Positions 45,089-56,944 of a stretch of DNA of 64,000 nucleotides are shown piece by piece. Origin of the DNA: an uncultured Aquimarina sp. (GTDB lineage Bacteria > Bacteroidota > Bacteroidia > Flavobacteriales > Flavobacteriaceae). The notes under the pieces were generated by a model that made no database searches, was not told where the DNA came from, and saw only the letters and a program-made list of their open reading frames with translations. The translations under genes were made by a program, and so were the position numbers. The stretch spans positions 62,001 to 126,000 of the forward strand of contig NZ_CANLOZ010000002.1 in the NCBI RefSeq assembly GCF_947492965.1, given 5' to 3'. How positions within the stretch are numbered: position 1 is the first letter of the stretch; each line of letters starts with the position of its first letter.

Positions 45089-47278
45089 TTGAGGGGAAGG
45101 TCATTATTTTTTATCCTTTTATGGACTATTCCATGGTTCTCGTATTGTCAGGAAGAATCGAAATTTCCTGTTAATGATAGTTTACAATTTCTAATAGACA
45201 CATCCAATAATTTAACTTTTGAGTATAAAGTCAAAGAATCGCTCGAGTACGCCATAAAAGCTGCTAATTATGCTCATGAATTAAATAATGATCACTATAA
45301 ATCTGAAGCCTACTATCTTATGGCTTACAATTATCAAATAATTGTGGATTATAAAAATGCTGAAGAATATTATAGAAAGTCATTGCATTACGCAGAAAAA
45401 GCAGGTGATTCATTGTTAATTCTATGGAATAATAATGGATTGGGAAATGTTTTTTCGGATGGCTATAAAGATTTAGAAGCATCGTTGGTGTATTATGATA
45501 AAGCCACTGATTTAGGTAAGCGATTAAATAAACCTGAGGAGTATATGACTCCTATCATTAATTTAGCTTGGACTTATGTGGATGCTAAAGAATTTGATAA
45601 AGCTATTCCTTATATCGAAGAAGCCAATAAATTAGTAGTGGAAAATCGTGATATCGAAGGTTATTGTGAAGTGTATTATCTTAAAGGCAGGCTAGCTTTA
45701 AGTCAGAATGACTTTGAAAAGTCTGAAAAATTTTTCCAAGAAGCACTCAATATAGCAGAAAGGCATAATATGTTATTGGAAGAATCCTATATATATGAAG
45801 CTAGAGCAGAGATGTATGCTAAAAAAGGTGAATTAGGTAAAGCCTATGAAGATATCAAACGGTTTCAAGAATATAGAGATAAAGTTTACAATAAAGAAAA
45901 ACTTAAACAAATAGAAATCGCAAGAGTAAGTTTTAATGTAGATGAATATGAAAGAGAATTACAAATAGCGAAAACAGAGAAAGAATATCAATCTCAACTT
46001 GCTAAGAACAATAGAACTCTTAATATTATTGCTGTTATTGGATTGATCTTTTTATTTGGGACTGCATTTTTCTTTTACGTTAGTTATAGGTCTAAGAAAA
46101 ATTTAAGTGATGTATTAAAAGATAAAAATGTACAACTTATAGAAGCTAAGGCAGAGGCTGAAAAACTTACTCAAGTAAAATCACAGTTTATTTCTACAGT
46201 AAGTCATGAGTTAAGAACACCATTATACGGTGTGGTTGGTATCACCTCATTATTATTAGAAGATAAAGATGTTTTAGATAGGCATAAAAAGTTATTAGGT
46301 TCTTTAAAGTTTTCGGGAGATTATCTTCTAAATCTAATTAACAACGTACTTCAAATAAGTAAAATAGAATCTAATAAAGTAAAATTAGCTAAGACACCTA
46401 CCAATCTTTTCAAACTATCACAAAACCTACTCAATTCATTTGAATATCAAGCAAAAAGTAAAGGTAATGAACTTATTTTAGAAGTACCTAACGAACTTCC
46501 AGAGTCCTTAAATGTAGATTCTTTGAGGTTATCAGAGATTTTAATAAACCTCATTGGTAATGCCTCGAAATTTACTGAAAATGGGAAGATTTGGTTACGT
46601 ATTATTTTATTAAGTAAGAAAGAAAACTCGATTCATATCAGATATGAAGTAGAAGATAACGGTGTGGGTATTCCAGATGATAAAAAGGATTTTGTTTTTG
46701 AGAAATTTTCACAGGTAGATCGGGAATCTAATAATGTAGAAGGTACTGGGCTTGGGCTATCTATTGTAAAAAACCTTTTGGAAATGATGGATAGTAGCGT
46801 ACATCTAGAAAGCAATGAAGGAAGAGGTACAAAGTTTTATTTTGATCTTACTCTAGAAATTTTAGAAGAAGGAGAGGAGCTTACTAATAATGAAATGAAC
46901 AATGGAAAAGCCAAAGTGTACCGTAGAATATTGGTTGCAGAAGATAATAAGATTAATCAAATAGTTACTAAAAACTTATTAAGTCTAATTGGATATGATT
47001 GTGTCATTGTAGAAAATGGCTTTAATGCCATTCAAATGGTAAAGAAAGAAGATTTTGATTTAATACTTATGGATTTAAATATGCCTTACTTAAATGGTTC
47101 TGAGGCTACCAAACGAATACGAGAATTTGATCAGAAAACTCCTATCATCGCACTTACTGCTGCAGAATTAGGAGAAGTAAAAGAGGATTGTTTAGAAATA
47201 GGTATGAATGATTTAATTAATAAACCTCTTAATAAAAATGATTTAAGAGATATTATTGTTAAAAATTTACTGCCTTAA
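45089..47278 (+). CDS. TPR-containing hybrid sensor histidine kinase/response regulator
   Basis: A signal peptide (RSLFFILLWTIPWFSYCQ) precedes TPR repeats over about residues 50-270, a membrane helix (about 311-330), a coiled segment, HisKA with VSHELRTPLYG (His 373), HATPase_c with DNGVGIP and GTGLGLSIVKNLLEM, and a receiver domain with phospho-acceptor Asp near 662 (LILMDLNMP). The TPRs should lie in the periplasm. I choose the TTG at 45089: an in-frame TAA lies at 45080 and the first in-frame ATG would delete the signal peptide. No output partner is adjacent. Signal and targets unknown. Confidence 0.88.
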   Translation: MRGRSLFFILLWTIPWFSYCQEESKFPVNDSLQFLIDTSNNLTFEYKVKESLEYAIKAANYAHELNNDHYKSEAYYLMAYNYQIIVDYKNAEEYYRKSLHYAEKAGDSLLILWNNNGLGNVFSDGYKDLEASLVYYDKATDLGKRLNKPEEYMTPIINLAWTYVDAKEFDKAIPYIEEANKLVVENRDIEGYCEVYYLKGRLALSQNDFEKSEKFFQEALNIAERHNMLLEESYIYEARAEMYAKKGELGKAYEDIKRFQEYRDKVYNKEKLKQIEIARVSFNVDEYERELQIAKTEKEYQSQLAKNNRTLNIIAVIGLIFLFGTAFFFYVSYRSKKNLSDVLKDKNVQLIEAKAEAEKLTQVKSQFISTVSHELRTPLYGVVGITSLLLEDKDVLDRHKKLLGSLKFSGDYLLNLINNVLQISKIESNKVKLAKTPTNLFKLSQNLLNSFEYQAKSKGNELILEVPNELPESLNVDSLRLSEILINLIGNASKFTENGKIWLRIILLSKKENSIHIRYEVEDNGVGIPDDKKDFVFEKFSQVDRESNNVEGTGLGLSIVKNLLEMMDSSVHLESNEGRGTKFYFDLTLEILEEGEELTNNEMNNGKAKVYRRILVAEDNKINQIVTKNLLSLIGYDCVIVENGFNAIQMVKKEDFDLILMDLNMPYLNGSEATKRIREFDQKTPIIALTAAELGEVKEDCLEIGMNDLINKPLNKNDLRDIIVKNLLP

Positions 47279-48124: not shown

Positions 48125-50317
48125 CTAATATAAACTTTGTAGTGATATATTCTTATGAAGTTCGTTCCAAAAATCGCTGTAAAAATTTTCAGATCTTAGT
48201 AATTCTTGGTGTGTTCCAGATATGCTTGTTTGTCCATTTTCTATTACACAAATTTGATCTGCTATTTTTGGTAATGAATGCAATCGATGCGAGATAAAAA
48301 TGATTCCAATTTTATCCTTGATATCTTGTAAAAGTTTTAATGAGAATTGCTCCGTTTTTCTGTCCATAGCGGATGTATATTCATCGAGTATTAATAATTG
48401 AGGCTTTTTATATAGAACACGAGCTAACGCTATGATCTGTTTTTGACCTCCAGAAAGATTGATTCCATCTTCTCCTAAAATCGTAGTATATCCCTGTGGG
48501 AATTGTGCAATATAGATATCCAAACCATATGCCTCACAAAATTTTATAATATTTTCTGGTGTGTCTTCATTACCTAAAATAATATTGTCTAATACGGTAC
48601 CATTGAATATCTCTATATCTTGCTCAATAACACCGATTATATTTCTCCATGAATCTAATCGAATTTGATCGAGAGAATATGTATCATTTATAACGATATC
48701 TCCGTGTTCTGGATGATAGAATTTCTGGATTATCTGTCCCAATGTACTTTTACCACTACCACTTTCCCCTACAATAGCAATACATTCTCCTTTTGATATT
48801 TTTAGTGAAATATTTTGAAACAAAGGACTTCTTCCAGCAAAACGAAATCGTACATCTTGGATAGACAAGGACTCAAAATTGTGTAAGTGAATATTTCCAT
48901 CTTTTTCTTTTTCTATCGATGCAAATTCATACATTCTGTTAAAAGCAACTTTAGCTTCATTTAAAGGAATAGCTATTAACGCTATATTGGCTACAGATGG
49001 TAATAGCGAGCCAGCAACTCCAAGAATAGCCATTAATTCTCCTATTTGTAAGGTGTTGTAGTACACACTTAAAGTTGTATAGCTTAGAATTGCTATAAGG
49101 AAAAATACACTAAATGCATTAGAAAATAATGACAATCGGATATGAATTTTGCCTAAATCAAAAACACAATCTTGATAATGTCCATAGATTAGTTTGTTTA
49201 ATTTCTGAAACAAGGTTTGTTTATTATTGTTTTTGATGGTTGCAATACCATTCATAGTGGAAATATAATTACTCTGACTATTTGCTCTGGATTGCATTAC
49301 CTCTTTTTGGGAATTTATGATTTTAGTATTAAAACTATAGATAAGAATAAAATACAACGGAAGACTAACAGAAGCAATGAGCCCCACTTGCCACGAATAA
49401 TAAAACAAGAAGCCAAGAGAAACAATGGAAACCAAAATGTTAACTACAAAATTATTGGCAACTAGCTGAATCACTTCTTGTACCCGTTGGGTATCATTAA
49501 GCCTAGAAACCAATTCTCCTATTTTCCTAGTATCAAAAAATGGTTTGGGTAATTGTAATAAAGCTCCATAAAAATCATTAATGATTCTATTGTTAAAATC
49601 CTTACTTTGTCTTAGTAAAAAATAAGATCTTAAAACAGTAAATCCACTTTTTACCAGTAACAAAAATGTAACCAAGGCAATTCCTGTGATCAATTTTGTA
49701 TAGTCTTTGGTAGGTAAAATGTCATCGATTAGTTTTTGAGAAAAAACTGCCATAACCATACCTAATATTGCAGTTAATAACCCTAAGACAGCACTAAAAG
49801 CTAAAAGATTATAATCTTCTTTTAGCAATCTTATAAACCAAGCTTTTTTAGCTGTTTTATGTTGTTCTTGTTTTACAAAAGATGTGTTAGGCTCTAATGT
49901 TAGACAAGTTTTTGACTTCCAGATATTTTCTAATTCATCTTTAGTATAATAAAGGATTCCTTTTGCAGGATCACCAATTATAAACTTGTTATCTCTTGTA
50001 CCATAGCATACAACATAATGCTGTAATCTATTATCTATAGTTACATGAAGAATCACTGGGGATGGATGGTCTATTAATGCTTGTATATCTGCCTCGCAAC
50101 CTTGTGCAGTAAATCCTAATTGATTGGCACTTTGATATAATCCTAACAGGGTAGTACCCTGTTTGGTAGTACCACTTAGCTCTCTGAGTTTTTCTAGAGA
50201 GTGATCACCCTGATAAAACCGAATCAAAGATAATAGACAAGCTACTCCACAATCACTCTGATCATGTTGTAAGACCAATGTCTTCTCTAACTGTTTTTCT
50301 GTAAATTTTACTTGCAT
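48125..50317 (-). CDS. C39-peptidase-containing ABC exporter (bacteriocin/GG-peptide secretion)
   Basis: The domain order is a C39 Cys protease (about residues 8-140; DQSDCGVACL with nucleophile Cys, His in QHYVVCYG, Asp in IGDPAKG), a six-helix ABC transmembrane domain (about 165-460), and an ATPase (Walker A GESGSGKST, signature LSGGQKQIIALAR, Walker B LLILDEYTSAMD). Such PCAT transporters cut the leader after a double-Gly motif and export the peptide. The start at 50317 (MQVKFTEKQ) is chosen because it begins at the conserved C39 N-terminus; the frame extends upstream to 50374 without homologous sequence. The two GG peptides at 52320 and 52515 are the likely cargo. No HlyD-type partner lies in the window. 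Confidence 0.93.
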   Translation of the reverse strand: MQVKFTEKQLEKTLVLQHDQSDCGVACLLSLIRFYQGDHSLEKLRELSGTTKQGTTLLGLYQSANQLGFTAQGCEADIQALIDHPSPVILHVTIDNRLQHYVVCYGTRDNKFIIGDPAKGILYYTKDELENIWKSKTCLTLEPNTSFVKQEQHKTAKKAWFIRLLKEDYNLLAFSAVLGLLTAILGMVMAVFSQKLIDDILPTKDYTKLITGIALVTFLLLVKSGFTVLRSYFLLRQSKDFNNRIINDFYGALLQLPKPFFDTRKIGELVSRLNDTQRVQEVIQLVANNFVVNILVSIVSLGFLFYYSWQVGLIASVSLPLYFILIYSFNTKIINSQKEVMQSRANSQSNYISTMNGIATIKNNNKQTLFQKLNKLIYGHYQDCVFDLGKIHIRLSLFSNAFSVFFLIAILSYTTLSVYYNTLQIGELMAILGVAGSLLPSVANIALIAIPLNEAKVAFNRMYEFASIEKEKDGNIHLHNFESLSIQDVRFRFAGRSPLFQNISLKISKGECIAIVGESGSGKSTLGQIIQKFYHPEHGDIVINDTYSLDQIRLDSWRNIIGVIEQDIEIFNGTVLDNIILGNEDTPENIIKFCEAYGLDIYIAQFPQGYTTILGEDGINLSGGQKQIIALARVLYKKPQLLILDEYTSAMDRKTEQFSLKLLQDIKDKIGIIFISHRLHSLPKIADQICVIENGQTSISGTHQELLRSENFYSDFWNELHKNISLQSLY

Positions 50318-50418
50318 AATTTTTGTTTTTCGACACTGATAAAGTGCATAATACCATTTTAAAGTGTAAACCAAAATGGAAAAAATTGTGTCCTATAAGT
50401 TATTTGTGTGCTTATACT

Positions 50419-50949
50419 TTAATGGTTTGTTTTTGTAGATAAAAGAGCCAATAGTTTTTCCGATTTTACTTGTCCTTTTTGTCGTTTTACTAATTGTTGA
50501 TTCTGATCATATATTAAAAGATAAGGAACTGAAGTAGCGTCAAAACGTTTGGCAAAATCATTTCGTGGATCAGATAAGAAAGTAATGTAATCATAAGTAT
50601 GTAATTTATATTGTATAGAAAAATGAAGTATCTGTTCTGGATCCTCGTCAGATACAAAAATGAGTTGTGTATTTTTAAAAGAAGCCACATGCTGTTCTAT
50701 CATAGTAGCTTCATGTTGGCAATAATCACATCCACTATTAAAGTAGATAAAAACAGTTGCCTTATCTGGATCTAAGTGATCCCTTGTAAAAGATTGTTTT
50801 TCTAGTGTCTGAAAAGAAAATTCAGGAATATGTTGCAAAGTTGTTTTAACTTCGGATTTATACTGTATTTTAGCATACATTTTATATCCTAAAAAGCATA
50901 ACAACCCAAGCCCGAAAACAACAATGGTTGTTTTTAGAAATGTTTTCAT
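50419..50949 (-). CDS. Membrane-anchored thioredoxin-like protein with CDYC motif
   Basis: One N-terminal hydrophobic helix (about residues 7-26) anchors a thioredoxin-fold domain (about 40-170). The active site is CDYC in VFIYFNSGCDYCQHEATMIE, and the cis-Pro loop is SVPYLLI. The arrangement matches TlpA/redoxin-type extracytoplasmic proteins that oxidise, isomerise or reduce disulfides. It lies between the membrane protein and C39 exporter genes of the peptide cluster. Because both GG peptides have a conserved Cys pair, I infer it may shape their disulfide bond. Confidence 0.82.
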   Translation of the reverse strand: MKTFLKTTIVVFGLGLLCFLGYKMYAKIQYKSEVKTTLQHIPEFSFQTLEKQSFTRDHLDPDKATVFIYFNSGCDYCQHEATMIEQHVASFKNTQLIFVSDEDPEQILHFSIQYKLHTYDYITFLSDPRNDFAKRFDATSVPYLLIYDQNQQLVKRQKGQVKSEKLLALLSTKTNH

Positions 50950-50976: not shown

Positions 50977-51141
50977 GGTTAGATTACTGGATTGTTGGAT
51001 AGTTCGATGATTAGATTACAAGATAATTAGATGTTTGGATTCATTAGTTTTTCAATACTAATCACTCATAACTCATAATTCTGAATTCCCAATTCACATC
51101 TTTCTAACACCTAAAATCTAATCCCTAACACCTAACATCAG
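50977..51141 (-). repeat. Compound degenerate tandem array: 8-nt block then 7-nt block
   Basis: On the plus strand 50977-51040 reads as eight units of 8 nt with consensus NNTTRGAT (GGTTAGAT, TACTGGAT, TGTTGGAT, AGTTCGAT, GATTAGAT, TACAAGAT, AATTAGAT, GTTTGGAT). From about 51051 to 51141 it changes to 7-nt units (TTCAATA, CTAATCA, CTCATAA, CTCATAA, TTCTGAA, TTCCCAA, then ACACCTA-type units). The last unit overlaps the stop codon of the gene at 51138. It fills the spacer between the membrane protein gene and the thioredoxin-like gene. Confidence 0.82.
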
Positions 51142-51761
51142 CTTACATTAAGTGTAAAAAACATGACAGCTACTACCCAAATAAGTAGTGCAGATCCATA
51201 ACTACTGACTACAATTTTTAATGCTTTGTCTTTGGTAACTTTGATTTGCTTACTTAATAACCAAGCTAGTGTAATCCAATAAAACAGTTCGAATAGGTTC
51301 AGCGTCTGGAAAGGATAGACAAACCAGGTTTCTAATCCTTCTTGTCCTACTAGTGCAAGTGCTGACAATGGGTAAAAGCTTTGCACATCTTCTAGCGTAT
51401 AGTCTTGCTGGAAAGCAAACCAACTTATTTTTATAATAGATACAACTACAAAGATAAATTCTGCTTTGGTAACGATGTTGAATAGCTTTTTGAAAGAGAT
51501 ATTTTTATCAAAGAAAAATGTACCCATCCACAAAACACTGCTGATTACACTAATCTTTATCAATAATAAAACAGGTAATAATGCATAAGAAATCCATTGC
51601 CATTTTTTATTAAAGCTTATAATATGCTGTATTTGATCATTGGATAACTGTTCTGATAAAGAATCATATAATAAGGCATCCGAATTTAAGACCCATTGGC
51701 TCAAAAAAGTCAATAAGAGTGTGATTCCTACCAATAGTAGAAACGTATATATATTTTTCAT
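51138..51761 (-). CDS. Polytopic membrane protein of the peptide-export cluster
   Basis: The 207-aa product has about five hydrophobic helices (about residues 4-22, 57-82, 97-113, 153-170 and 182-204) and no recognised domain. The last helix and its short C-terminal tail (FFTLNVS) end at a stop lying inside the tandem repeat array. Proteins of similar size and topology are often found beside C39 exporters in Bacteroidota, and an immunity or accessory role is possible; this is inference from position. It is followed by the thioredoxin-like gene. Confidence 0.72.
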   Translation of the reverse strand: MKNIYTFLLLVGITLLLTFLSQWVLNSDALLYDSLSEQLSNDQIQHIISFNKKWQWISYALLPVLLLIKISVISSVLWMGTFFFDKNISFKKLFNIVTKAEFIFVVVSIIKISWFAFQQDYTLEDVQSFYPLSALALVGQEGLETWFVYPFQTLNLFELFYWITLAWLLSKQIKVTKDKALKIVVSSYGSALLIWVVAVMFFTLNVS

Positions 51762-51923: not shown

Positions 51924-52082
51924 TCATTTACTTTTTATTGGTTTTACAAGAAATATCATGGTAACTCCAAATAATAGATAAAGTCCTCCTTTTATAAATT
52001 TATGTGGCGAAATAATATCTACTAGATCAGCAAGAATTAGCATTAATGCAGTGATTAAGGAAAATAAAATAATCTTCTTCAA
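51924..52082 (-). CDS. Small membrane protein, about 52 aa, TTG start overlapping the upstream stop
   Basis: A TTG at 52082-52080 overlaps the TGA (52081-52079) of the 63-aa gene, and the frame runs to TGA at 51926-51924. The product opens KKIILFSLITALMLILADLV, then IISPHKFIKGG and LYLLFGVTMIFLVKPIKSK: two hydrophobic helices joined by a short basic loop. This is not an ATG frame; an internal ATG at codon 14 is the alternative. The 4-base stop/start overlap supports translational coupling. A role as a small immunity-type protein next to GG peptides is plausible but unproven. Confidence 0.5.
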   Translation of the reverse strand: MKKIILFSLITALMLILADLVDIISPHKFIKGGLYLLFGVTMIFLVKPIKSK

Positions 52083-52270
52083 TTCTTTCTCAGTTTTTTC
52101 ACCAATTCAAATACAATATAACACACATAAAAGATGATGACTAGATACTGTATCCAATGATCTTCGAAGCTTTTATTTTCACTCTTATATAATTGATAAC
52201 TTGCTCTACTTACTATAAAAAGTAATATTAGTTGATAAAATAGAAACGGAATTAGCTTTTCTTTTTTCAT
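52079..52270 (-). CDS. Small membrane protein, 63 aa
   Basis: The product has two hydrophobic stretches (residues about 7-24 and 40-56) flanked by Lys-rich ends (MKKEKL and KKLRKN), the pattern of a two-helix inner-membrane protein. It lies directly downstream of two GG-leader peptide genes (49 nt) and is coupled to the 52-aa frame after it. Small basic two-helix proteins in this position are typical candidates for immunity to a bacteriocin, but no family is recognised. Confidence 0.6.
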   Translation of the reverse strand: MKKEKLIPFLFYQLILLFIVSRASYQLYKSENKSFEDHWIQYLVIIFYVCYIVFELVKKLRKN

Positions 52271-52319: not shown

Positions 52320-52502
52320 TTAATGAGATGTTACATAATTATAACAAGATAAAATTGGAATAGCTCTACCAAATATTCTAGCAACTCCATTAGATATAGG
52401 CATGAATATAGCTGCACCACAGGTTAATCCTGCTATAAATGCATCTTCTGTCTCTCCTGATCCTGATATACTCTGTAATTTGTTTATACTTAATTTTTTC
52501 AT
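52320..52502 (-). CDS. GG-leader-type secreted peptide precursor B (bacteriocin-like)
   Basis: The 60-aa product has a short leader, MKKLSINKLQSISGSG, with a G-S-G processing site (a variant of the double-Gly motif, cut expected after Gly16). The core is about 44 residues, hydrophobic and Gly/Ala/Ile-rich (AFIAGLTCGAAIFMPISNGV), with Cys at 28 and 53, exactly 25 residues apart, as in peptide A next to it. Hydrophobic core, leader and C39 exporter support a class II-like bacteriocin or signalling peptide. It starts 12 nt after the stop of peptide A. No known family is identified. Confidence 0.78.
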   Translation of the reverse strand: MKKLSINKLQSISGSGETEDAFIAGLTCGAAIFMPISNGVARIFGRAIPILSCYNYVTSH

Positions 52503-52514
52503 TGTATATTTTTT

Positions 52515-52697
52515 TTAATTTTCATTCGTTCTTTCATCGCTTAATAAACAAGCACTGACTCCCAATAAAGCAACTGGTCCTATAACTGCAAAACCTAGTA
52601 CAGCTGTTGCCAATCCAAAACCACACGCAAATGCTGCTCCTGGTGAAACATCTCCACCTTGAAGATTTTCCATTGTATTTAATTCTAAATTTCTCAT
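52515..52697 (-). CDS. GG-leader secreted peptide precursor A (bacteriocin-like)
   Basis: The 60-aa product has leader MRNLELNTMENLQGG, a textbook double-Gly leader (cut expected after Gly15) with the LxxLxxM/L pattern. The core is 45 residues, rich in Gly, Ala, Val and Leu (AAFACGFGLATAVLGFAVIG), with Cys at 25 and 50, then an acidic tail DERTNEN. It shares the 25-residue Cys spacing and the AxxCG start with peptide B. Together they look like a two-peptide system exported and trimmed by the C39 transporter at 48125. The precursor class is inferred. Confidence 0.85.
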   Translation of the reverse strand: MRNLELNTMENLQGGDVSPGAAFACGFGLATAVLGFAVIGPVALLGVSACLLSDERTNEN

Positions 52698-52777
52698 AAA
52701 ATATAATTTTAATTTTAGTACCTACTCTATGATTAAAGGCTTTTCGGTTTCCGCCTTGTCCGTTGCGCAACGGTTTA

Positions 52778-52917
52778 TTTTAGATTTTTAGATTGTTCGA
52801 TCTTTGGATGATTAGATTATTAGCTTTTCAATAGTAATCACTCATCATTTCTAATTCTTAACTCCTTAACTTCCGCCATCCGTCCTCTGTCTCCCAGCAC
52901 CTAACCCCTAACATCCT
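52778..52917 (-). repeat. Compound degenerate tandem array (8-nt then 7-nt units) upstream of peptide A
   Basis: Plus strand 52778-52825 reads as six 8-nt units (TTTTAGAT twice, TGTTCGAT, CTTTGGAT, GATTAGAT, TATTAGCT). From 52827 the period is 7 nt for thirteen units (TTCAATA, GTAATCA, CTCATCA, TTTCTAA, TTCTTAA, CTCCTTA, ACTTCCG, CCATCCG, TCCTCTG, TCTCCCA, GCACCTA, ACCCCTA, ACATCCT). The first array at 50977-51141 has the same order and similar units at the switch (TTCAATA, NTAATCA, CTCATNA). Confidence 0.85.
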
Positions 52918-52964
52918 TACCACTCATTTTTCATTTATTATTTGGGTTTTCAGGTATCATTTTT

Positions 52965-53069
52965 CTCACTACTCACTACTCTGTACTCACTTCTCAATAC
53001 TCACCACTTTCACCTCACACCTCACACCCGACATCCAACTTCTAAAACCTCATACCTAGTACCTAACCC
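52965..53069 (-). repeat. Heptad tandem array abutting the sigma factor stop codon
   Basis: Fifteen uninterrupted 7-nt units on the plus strand, every one beginning with C: CTCACTA twice, CTCTGTA, CTCACTT, CTCAATA, CTCACCA, CTTTCAC, CTCACAC twice, CCGACAT, CCAACTT, CTAAAAC, CTCATAC, CTAGTAC, CTAACCC. The last unit contains the stop codon (TAG on the minus strand) of the ECF sigma factor gene. A 47-nt stretch without a repeat register (52918-52964) separates it from the preceding array. Confidence 0.87.
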
Positions 53070-53635
53070 ACCACCAACTCTACATATACAGGATCATTTT
53101 GTATCATTTGGGTTAATCGTTCTTTATGAATATGTTTTTTTTTGCGAGTGTAGCCTTCTGATAGTCCGAAGCGACTAGCGATTTCCTTCATACTTTTTCC
53201 TTCAAAAAATAATTGCAGTAGTTGTTTACTTTGGCTACTTAATCGTGTAAAATGTTTATAAAACAGGTCCTGTTCATCGGCTCTTGTTATTTGTTCTATA
53301 ACAGATTCCGAAGGATCTAATGTATAGTTTTCATGAAGTTCCTGAAATGCTAATATGTGCTGTCTACGCCACTGGTTTCTCCATTTGTTTTTGCAAATCC
53401 CAATAAAATAGGTGTGAATAGAGGACTCCAAAGAAGCCAAGCTACCAGAGCGAGCTTTGTGATATAACAATACCATCGCTTCCTGAAAAATATCTTCTAC
53501 ATCTTCGATAGTACCTTGATAGCGTAGAATATACTTTTTTACCGCTGGTAAGTCTTTTTTATAAAATGATTTTAGCACTTGGTGATCCCCTGTGATAATC
53601 CCTGCTATGATATGTTTGTTTGTTGTTGAGTTCAT
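53063..53635 (-). CDS. ECF-type RNA polymerase sigma-70 factor
   Basis: The 190-aa product has sigma region 2 (about residues 20-90, TIEDVEDIFQEAMVLLYHKA and GICKNKWRNQWRR) and region 4 (about 130-180, LSSQSKQLLQLFFEGKSMKEIASRFG with LSEGYTRKKKHIHKERL, a helix-turn-helix). Linker and length are normal. No anti-sigma factor is adjacent. It is the promoter-proximal gene of the minus-strand run carrying the GG peptides and exporter, separated from them by the tandem arrays. I infer that it may drive the cluster, but a promoter site could not be read. Confidence 0.88.
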   Translation of the reverse strand: MNSTTNKHIIAGIITGDHQVLKSFYKKDLPAVKKYILRYQGTIEDVEDIFQEAMVLLYHKARSGSLASLESSIHTYFIGICKNKWRNQWRRQHILAFQELHENYTLDPSESVIEQITRADEQDLFYKHFTRLSSQSKQLLQLFFEGKSMKEIASRFGLSEGYTRKKKHIHKERLTQMIQNDPVYVELVVG

Positions 53636-54143
53636 GTTTTCCTATACTTTGTTTGTCACACCAATTCTTTCAGAGTGTTTTTTCATACTCCGAGTGACAT
53701 TATGTTGTTGTGTTTATGTAATTGTATGTTGTACCACATGCGAATGCATCCTATTTCTATGTTACTTTCCTAGGTACTATTCACTTTTTCATTTATACTG
53801 TTACATTTTTATATACCCCATCTGCCTAAGGGGTGTACCCCATGGCTAACTGTTTTTAAGGATTGAATTACTATTTATAAGAATCGTTTTACTGGGTATC
53901 ACCCTTGTAGCAAGCACTTCTAAGGATCGATTTGATATTTATAAGCGGTATTCGATGGCTTATAAGTCTCGATGTACGGGTTATCAACCCTATTTCTTGG
54001 GGTTCGTACTAGTAATCTAATCCTTCGAAATAGTATGTTGATCCTTCGAAGTGCTCATAGGAGGGGTAACAACTATTGATATCTTCCTTATGAGTAGTAT
54101 GGCAAGTGATTTATTGGCTAACTCACCAGCGCTATGTATGGTG
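53636..54143. other. 508-nt gene-free region with repeated short hairpin elements
   Basis: Nothing coding is convincing on either strand. It holds two imperfect copies of a 25-nt element, TAAGGATTGAATTACTATTT followed by ATAAG (53857-53881) and its variant at 53921-53945, and three short inverted repeats: GGGGTGTACCCC (53830-53841), GGGTATCACCC (53894-53904) and GGGTTATCAACCC (53978-53990). TCCTTCGAA occurs at 54021-54029 and 54042-54050. The pattern suggests regulatory or decayed mobile repeats upstream of the sigma factor gene. Confidence 0.6.
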
Positions 54144-54629
54144 TTAAGAGGTTGTATCCGTGGTATCAATACTGGATGTCGTCTTATTAAACAACACCTT
54201 CATATCTTCATATACCGATTTGGCACCCGGTTCATTTTCACCGGCTAGATAACGACTCATGCGATAAAAGCTTAGCGCATTGGTATAATTATCATGATCT
54301 AAGAGGGTTTTGGTATCTACCAGTTGTTGGGTTAGATTTTCTAGGAGTTGTACTCTGTTTTCTACTTGTGTACGTGCCAGGTAGTCTTTGTCAAACTCTT
54401 CTTTGTCGATAAAACTAGGAATCCAATTAGGATGTTGCTCCATATAGTTTTTGGCTTTGTCTACAATTAGTTTGTTCTGATTGGCAATACGCCCGTATTG
54501 TCTGCGCTGATCAGGAGTAAGGTTTACTGTTTTACCAGTAAGTATCTGGCGAATACCCAGTAAATGCCCATCTAGCTGAGTTAATTCTTCTTCTGTAAAG
54601 CTAATGCTTATTAAATTTTCTAATGCCAT
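54144..54629 (-). CDS. Conserved hypothetical helical protein
   Basis: The 161-aa product is soluble, with no signal peptide. It begins MALENLISISFTEEELTQLD and contains TVNLTPDQRRQYGRIANQNK, then helical, charged sequence. I recall related sequences in several Bacteroidota genomes but no assigned function. The sequence suggests a helical bundle. It lies just upstream of the sigma factor gene on the same strand, after a 508-nt gap, and divergent from the TPR/AraC-type regulator. Confidence 0.68.
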   Translation of the reverse strand: MALENLISISFTEEELTQLDGHLLGIRQILTGKTVNLTPDQRRQYGRIANQNKLIVDKAKNYMEQHPNWIPSFIDKEEFDKDYLARTQVENRVQLLENLTQQLVDTKTLLDHDNYTNALSFYRMSRYLAGENEPGAKSVYEDMKVLFNKTTSSIDTTDTTS

Positions 54630-56758: not shown

Positions 56759-56944
56759 ATGAAAAATACAAAGTTAGATCTTCAAAAATTTACAGTAGCT
56801 AGATTAGACAACATGAATGCTATAAAAGGAGGTAGTAATAATACATCTACAACATCTACAGATGAGGATAGTCTTCCAACTGAAACATCTTTAGCAAGTT
56901 TACAATCAAGTTTACAGTGTATAATTACAAGAAACAACGAATAA
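56759..56944 (+). CDS. Lanthipeptide-like (GG-leader) natural product precursor
   Basis: The 61-aa product has leader KLDLQKFTVARLDNMNAIKGG, which fits the Bacteroidota LxLxKxxVxxL..M..IKGG class I lanthipeptide/GG-natural-product leader, with processing after Gly25. The 36-residue core (SNNTSTTSTDEDSLPTETSL and onwards) has fifteen Ser/Thr and one Cys at 54. Many Ser/Thr and few Cys is seen in some Bacteroidota RiPPs. No LanB, LanC, radical SAM or grasp-type enzyme lies in the window, so the modification system must be elsewhere, or absent. A weak AAAGGG precedes the ATG, and a terminator follows. Confidence 0.78.
   Translation: MKNTKLDLQKFTVARLDNMNAIKGGSNNTSTTSTDEDSLPTETSLASLQSSLQCIITRNNE

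Follow-up and report, generated by a model that had tools for sequence, protein, structure and literature searches.

Two adjacent two-cysteine precursor genes in an uncultured Aquimarina: a candidate class II bacteriocin on bacteroidetocin-type machinery

Two adjacent short genes, A and B, in the window (the whole stretch of 64,000 nucleotides of DNA from an uncultured Aquimarina that was analysed) appear, with moderate confidence, to encode the precursors of a disulfide-closed class II bacteriocin, probably of the two-peptide kind, that would be made on machinery of the bacteroidetocin type. This interpretation, drawn from sequence comparison, is favoured by the content of the operon, by an oxidoreductase and exporter block conserved in related loci, by the two-cysteine GG-type precursors of those loci with their excess of GxxxG and their Pfam matches, by the membrane mini-ORFs found there, and by recurrence of the pair in a second genome.

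The precursor pair and its operon

Both frames are present as originally predicted, with 60 residues each on the minus strand and a pair of cysteines spaced 25 apart in each (Table 1). A comes first and is separated from B by 12 bp, and the two cores share 17% identity in alignment. Other parts of the prediction hold for A rather than for both: the AxxCG context at the first cysteine is found in A (AFACG) but not in B (GLTCG), the pattern common to the two being AxxxCG, and the leader of A ends in a double glycine while that of B ends in GSG, though the B orthologue in the locus L058 has a leader ending GG. The charge at pH 7 is −3.25 for A and −1.09 for B, and the calculated masses of the reduced cores are 4395.0 Da and 4691.4 Da respectively. 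Read from the sequence, B has one GxxxG (residues 25–29), whereas A has only GxxxA/AxxxG. No Pfam or NCBIfam family is matched above its cut-off by A or B, including Bacteriocin_IIc (PF10439) at its gathering cut-off, and the bacteriocin signal TIGR01847 lies just under the cut-off in B (14.5 versus 15.7 bits). The AlphaFold model of A is of low confidence (pLDDT 62).

Equal spacing alone is weak evidence, since it is expected by chance in 3% of cases if each core has two randomly placed cysteines, and in 5.5% for two random members of the family described below. That A and B are genes is better supported by their GG-type leaders, their position as the first genes of an exporter operon, the reappearance of the pair in L058 and the purifying selection on both cores.

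Table 1. Features of the locus, with positions in the window
Feature	Position	Strand	Characteristics
Precursor A	52515..52697	minus	60 aa; 15-aa leader ending GG; 45-aa core; Cys25/Cys50; Gly/Ala-rich, acidic
Precursor B	52320..52502	minus	60 aa; leader ending GSG; 44-aa core if cut after residue 16; Cys28/Cys53
63-aa two-segment membrane protein	52079..52270	minus	Candidate immunity protein; two hydrophobic segments; relative in L058 (E 7e-9)
52-aa two-segment membrane protein	51924..52082	minus	TTG start; second candidate immunity protein, weaker call; hydrophobic segments
207-aa multi-helix membrane protein	51138..51761	minus	Yip1/YknW-like below cut-offs (family comparison); model pLDDT 94.7
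176-aa membrane-anchored thiol oxidoreductase	50419..50949	minus	Thioredoxin fold; CDYC; Pfam AhpC-TSA 42.7 bits (cut-off 26)
749-aa C39 peptidase/ABC exporter	48125..50374	minus	Listed start TTG; PF03412 116.9 (22), ABC_membrane (PF00664) 114.5 (28), ABC_tran (PF00005) 104 (25), cut-offs in brackets
ECF sigma factor	53063..53635	minus	Probable regulator; TIGR02937 62.2 (cut-off 42.9)
Duplicated regulatory block	52710..54629		161-aa gene (minus strand), ECF sigma factor, long leader; ends 13 bp before A
TPR hybrid histidine kinase	45089..47278	plus	Receiver domain; 847 bp past the exporter gene

The two small membrane proteins after the precursors, here called hairpin proteins, are probably immunity proteins. 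No relative of the 52-aa protein was listed in a search confined to ORFs of at least 60 aa, in which one of similar size could be missed. The 207-aa protein, probably the counterpart of the bacteroidetocin TM protein, has four hydropathy segments over threshold, with a fifth seen only by eye on the sequence. The thiol oxidoreductase carries its CxxC at residue 74 and has one N-terminal hydrophobic segment, and the peptidase domain of the exporter begins near residue 32 with motifs that look intact; this protein matches TIGR01193 with an E-value of 1.3e-121, yet is under the cut-off of that family. Between the genes for the 207-aa protein and the oxidoreductase, 87 bases (51003–51089) have 76% similarity to a segment of the leader in the duplicated block.

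In the mechanism that we envisage, transcription would start from a promoter in the upstream block, probably through its ECF sigma factor. Judging from the leaders and the domain content of the exporter, its C39 domain would cut after GG in A or GSG in B and its ABC part would export the cores. The CxxC thiol oxidoreductase would join the two cysteines of each core and so close a helix-turn-helix hairpin, with the 207-aa membrane protein perhaps serving as an accessory needed for activity, by analogy with the bacteroidetocin TM protein in the available text of PMC6671954. Outside the cell A and B, as hydrophobic Gly/Ala-rich helices, may act together on the envelope of related Bacteroidota, and one or both of the hairpin proteins would give immunity.

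Relatives of the precursors and the wider family

Among 149 genomes of the family, the own genome included, A finds matches in four and B in two. L058, labelled uncultured Cellulophaga, contains orthologues of both that adjoin in the same order, each with a spacing of 25. Comparison with it gives dN 0.15 and dS 1.46 for the B core (dN/dS about 0.10) and dN 0.27 and dS 1.33 for the A core (about 0.20), ratios that are rough because dS is near saturation but plain in direction: both cores are under purifying selection. The B leader has diverged (dN 0.80), and A in L058 has no ATG at the expected place. Relatives of both precursors occupy the corresponding position in another genus (G071), but there the A frame is interrupted and B has no in-frame start, and both copies look decayed. 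In L043 an A-like peptide is accompanied by one without clear likeness to B; the relatives in L043 and L058 keep the spacing of 25.

Because so few genomes match A or B, the 207-aa protein was taken as an anchor. It finds matches in 14 of 397 genomes of the family (E up to 0.001), and its profile in 13 of 295 genomes of the class (E up to 1e-4). A contig search gave 83 stretches encoding a relative, the best 80 of which were kept (L024–L103); the loci come from Aquimarina, Flavobacterium, Tenacibaculum, Kordia, Capnocytophaga, Winogradskyella, Polaribacter, Pedobacter, Spirosoma, Fibrella and others. Among these best 80 of 83, an oxidoreductase lies 3′ of the anchor in 73, an exporter in 72 and both in 71. 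Two of the nine loci without both (L094, L096) end within 0.8 kb, and three (L070, L074, L079) have 6 kb with neither gene. All 73 oxidoreductase matches contain a CxxC, and both peptidase patterns sought are found in 64 of 73 exporter matches. Outside this set are six relatives of the 207-aa protein (L140, L141, L143–L146) for which no exporter or oxidoreductase relative was found within the 8.5–8.8 kb read, so this family of proteins may serve other purposes as well.

A strict scan of the best 80 of 83 loci, blind to cysteines, for GG-type ORFs in the 3 kb upstream of the anchor found 104 on the sense strand in 64 loci, 78 of them with exactly two core cysteines (59 of 80 loci), compared with 10 on the other strand, of which two had two cysteines. 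The remaining 26 sense ORFs have no cysteine (13), one (7) or three to five (6), and some of these are evidently not precursors at all. A wider scan for two-cysteine, Gly/Ala-rich cores gave 91 peptides in 64 of the 80 loci versus two on the other strand. Combining the scans with L078, two-cysteine, GG-type, Gly/Ala-rich precursors, single or paired, occur in 67 of the best 80 of 83 loci; five of the 13 without one (L024, L031, L068, L081, L101) start within 300 bases upstream of the anchor. A single precursor is found in 42 of the 59 loci of the strict scan, and two or more in the other 17 (24 of 64 in the wider scan), so two-peptide action would not be general. Mini-ORFs with a membrane segment are found in the interval from the last precursor to the anchor in 37 of 59 loci on the sense strand, versus 4 of 59 on the other. 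The products are diverse, as immunity proteins often are.

Usually one cysteine lies near each end of the core, mostly no more than 11 residues from the leader for the first and 14 from the C-terminus for the second, although distances of up to 23 and 34 respectively occur. The spacing itself ranges from 20 to 49 (to 48 in the strict scan), and no locus with several precursors repeats one, either in the strict scan (0 of 17) or in the wider scan (0 of 24); equal spacing is seen outside those counts in L058 (25/25) and in L097 and L119 (44/44). Equal spacing within a locus is thus rare and near chance, and spacing is inherited within a subfamily with no rule for the family, so that the stress that the original prediction laid on identical spacing finds no support.

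Between the cysteines the composition is 22% Gly and 21% Ala. GxxxG occurs there 150 times versus 115.7 expected (sd 8.5), a count not reached in any of 1000 shuffles, and Gly pairs at i+7 are likewise in excess (125 versus 104.1, sd 8.3), while small-xxx-small motifs between the cysteines are not (592 versus 581.5, sd 13.1; 205 of 1000 shuffles as high). Proline falls in the middle third of 52 of 82 cores. Such a composition would suit a pair of helices that flank a break and are closed by a disulfide. When 65 of 86 two-cysteine peptides were scanned with E up to 0.1, 20 matched Pfam Bacteriocin_IIc, 7 MccV, 8 the class IIb family TIGR03949 and two TIGR04149, all of them weak matches at that limit. 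Of ten members scanned with cut-offs, two passed that of PF10439 (30.0 and 28.0 versus 27.1).

An ordered pair class recurs in five loci (L045, L084, L085, L086, L091) with gaps of 9–19 bp. Against its models A scores 8.9 bits (shuffled decoys: 95th percentile 5.1, maximum 11.2) and B at best 3.0, and by these scores neither fits. Two Aquimarina loci (L025:4443-5803 and L026:4358-5717) have several further GG precursors between the two-cysteine precursors and the 207-aa gene; their cysteine pattern is another one, with spacings of 9, 9 and 3 in three of them.

A duplicated regulatory block upstream of A

The block upstream of A is 97.6% identical over 1927 bp to a stretch on contig 6 of the same genome (L104:5983-7907). 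The match extends from 13 bp before the start of A as far as the start codon of the 161-aa gene; outside it, similarity is confined to pieces of 68–80% in a TPR-AraC gene, a short intergenic stretch and a flanking gene of 159–161 aa, the flanking TPR-AraC and 160-aa genes being homologous but diverged at both places. At L104 the block is followed by a grasp-with-spasm cluster: two other GG-type precursors, an ATP-grasp protein (229.9 bits against a cut-off of 230) and a SPASM maturase (361.5 against 175). The simplest reading is a duplicated regulatory frame, or chassis, whose cargo has been exchanged and whose copies are alike through gene conversion or recent copying; the two gene clusters would then be under joint control.

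A further genus (G179) has two pairs of a TPR-AraC and a 161-aa gene (L152, L153), and in both the contig ends once the same 410 bases of the 161-aa gene have been read; a near-identical repeat that interrupted assembly would have this effect. In the window, a further GG-leader peptide of 61 aa with one cysteine follows the TPR-AraC gene (56759–56944); it is below the cut-offs for TIGR04149 and for the class I lanthipeptide leader.

Alternative explanations and known systems

Several findings weigh against the bacteriocin reading: the lack of Pfam or NCBIfam matches for A and B, of GxxxG in A and of a small-xxx-small excess, the poor fit to the pair class, the single precursors of most loci, the decay in G071, the missing ATG of A in L058, the low-confidence model of A and the presence of a sensor kinase nearby. 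That A and B are two independent single-peptide bacteriocins, each acting alone with its own immunity hairpin and sharing one exporter and oxidoreductase, is unlikely, though it deserves serious thought: it accounts for the 42 of 59 loci with one precursor (17 with two or more in the strict scan, 24 of 64 in the wider one), the low identity of the two cores, the two hairpin proteins after two precursors and the A-like peptide of L043. However, the two genes keep their adjacency and order in L058, as do their decayed copies in G071, and the ordered pair class with its short gaps recurs in five loci. The original prediction offered either two halves of a bacteriocin or a signalling pair. The former is the best reading, given the C39 exporter, the oxidoreductase, the bacteroidetocin-type membrane protein, the hairpins and the class II matches of relatives; the latter, with A and B as secreted pheromones sensed by the kinase, is improbable. 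Export by a GG leader serves pheromones too, the kinase gene lies 0.85 kb past the exporter gene, and upstream of A come genes for an ECF sigma factor and a TPR-AraC regulator. However, the kinase is encoded on the opposite strand and outside the chassis, past the 161-aa gene at its end, and among the ORFs of L104 none was seen at the matching place; hydrophobic two-cysteine cores, hairpin proteins and the bacteriocin and microcin matches of relatives point to weapons.

It is highly improbable that the pair are precursors of an enzymatically modified RiPP. Their leaders are like those of Bacteroidota RiPPs, as the two TIGR04149 matches among 65 relatives (E up to 0.1) suggest, and a grasp-with-spasm cluster has the same upstream block, but no radical SAM, lanthipeptide, YcaO or ATP-grasp enzyme is found among the ORFs from 47.5 to 54.6 kb. 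That A and B are chance or dead frames is barely credible: equal spacing alone could be due to chance, and the G071 copies are decayed, yet both cores are under purifying selection and keep their place at the head of an exporter operon.

Among known systems the bacteriocin reading of A and B leads most directly to the bacteroidetocins, which were tested in gut Bacteroidales. According to the available text of Coyne et al. 2019 (PMC6671954), the peptide gene lies in a region that also encodes a 5-TM protein, a thiol oxidoreductase and a C39-ABC exporter; activity is weakened when the gene for the peptide, the TM protein or the oxidoreductase is deleted, and the bacteroidetocins form a proposed class IIf, of which Bd-A kills Bacteroidota with BamA as target. 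The operon described here has in common with them a GG-type leader of 15–16 aa (ending GSG in B), a small cysteine-containing core, a TM protein that is probably the counterpart of theirs, the oxidoreductase and the exporter. Bacteroidetocins A and B, as far as that text goes, are four-cysteine peptides of net positive charge with a single precursor and no evident immunity gene, whereas the present precursors have two cysteines, are acidic and Gly/Ala-rich, and come as two genes at the front followed by hairpin proteins; the four cysteines and basic core of the bacteroidetocin A/B type are absent from both. Neither the TM protein nor the oxidoreductase of the bacteroidetocins confers immunity, and producers are self-sensitive according to the same text, which also counts against the bacteriocin reading.

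The 207-aa profile finds the TM gene of L147 (G562) with an E-value of 9.9e-14, and the machinery around A and B is thus probably of the bacteroidetocin kind, the comparison being with the TM protein of L147. The order at L147:3486-7171 (TM gene, 60-aa peptide, oxidoreductase, exporter) is the described bacteroidetocin layout, and the peptide has a 15-aa GG leader, Lys after the GG, four cysteines and, by count, a net positive charge.

Thermophilin 13, of class IIb, shares with A and B two structural genes (thmA/thmB), an ABC transporter and thiol-disulfide oxidoreductases, and ThmA has two cysteines (Cys6/Cys53) and several GxxxG (PMC10059821, available text). It differs in being Gram-positive, in having two cysteines in ThmA only, in its pheromone and two-component control, and in having a CAAX protease in place of the 207-aa protein. 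Of the marks of class IIb, A and B show two adjacent, different precursors but not GxxxG in both, A being without it. A GG leader and Gly-rich core link Bacteriocin_IIc (PF10439), TIGR03949 and MccV to the relatives, with A and B themselves unmatched. YknW of the Bacillus YknWXYZ system for SDP efflux is weakly similar to the 207-aa protein (20.7 bits, far under the cut-off of 110 for NF052650), and both are linked to a peptide toxin, YknW by the available text of PMC4887032; no YknXYZ partner was found among window ORFs with a family match. Yip1-type proteins occur in leaderless and circular bacteriocin clusters, where the part of PMC11580447 available offers a guess of immunity or transport, which makes the accessory role proposed above for the 207-aa protein a tentative one.

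Within the literature as available, two-cysteine precursors of the A/B type were not found described, although the 19 peptides of figure 8 of PMC6671954 may include some. The suggestion of a new family thus stands in so far as the precursors match no curated family, while the machinery and the precursor type (GG leader, at least two cysteines) are those of bacteroidetocins as of 2019, whose wider set accepted relatives with at least two cysteines in the text available.

More tentatively, and with some doubt, we propose that Bacteroidota may hold a large, mostly unrecognised class of two-cysteine, Gly-rich bacteriocins, often two-peptide, on bacteroidetocin machinery and, unlike the bacteroidetocins, with dedicated hairpin immunity proteins, the upstream block serving in this genome as a portable chassis for a bacteriocin or a grasp-with-spasm RiPP. 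If so, the bacteroidetocin system would extend beyond single four-cysteine peptides and be found in many Flavobacteriia of the environment, as well as in some Cytophagales and Chitinophagaceae, would have a link in design with class IIb peptides of Gram-positive bacteria and with those of the microcin V kind, and would gain candidate immunity genes, which known bacteroidetocins lack. The proposal for A and B can be tested with synthetic peptides. Four-cysteine precursors, some with a Pro-rich C-terminal end, also precede the same machinery at L150:1903-3306 and L151:1490-1660.
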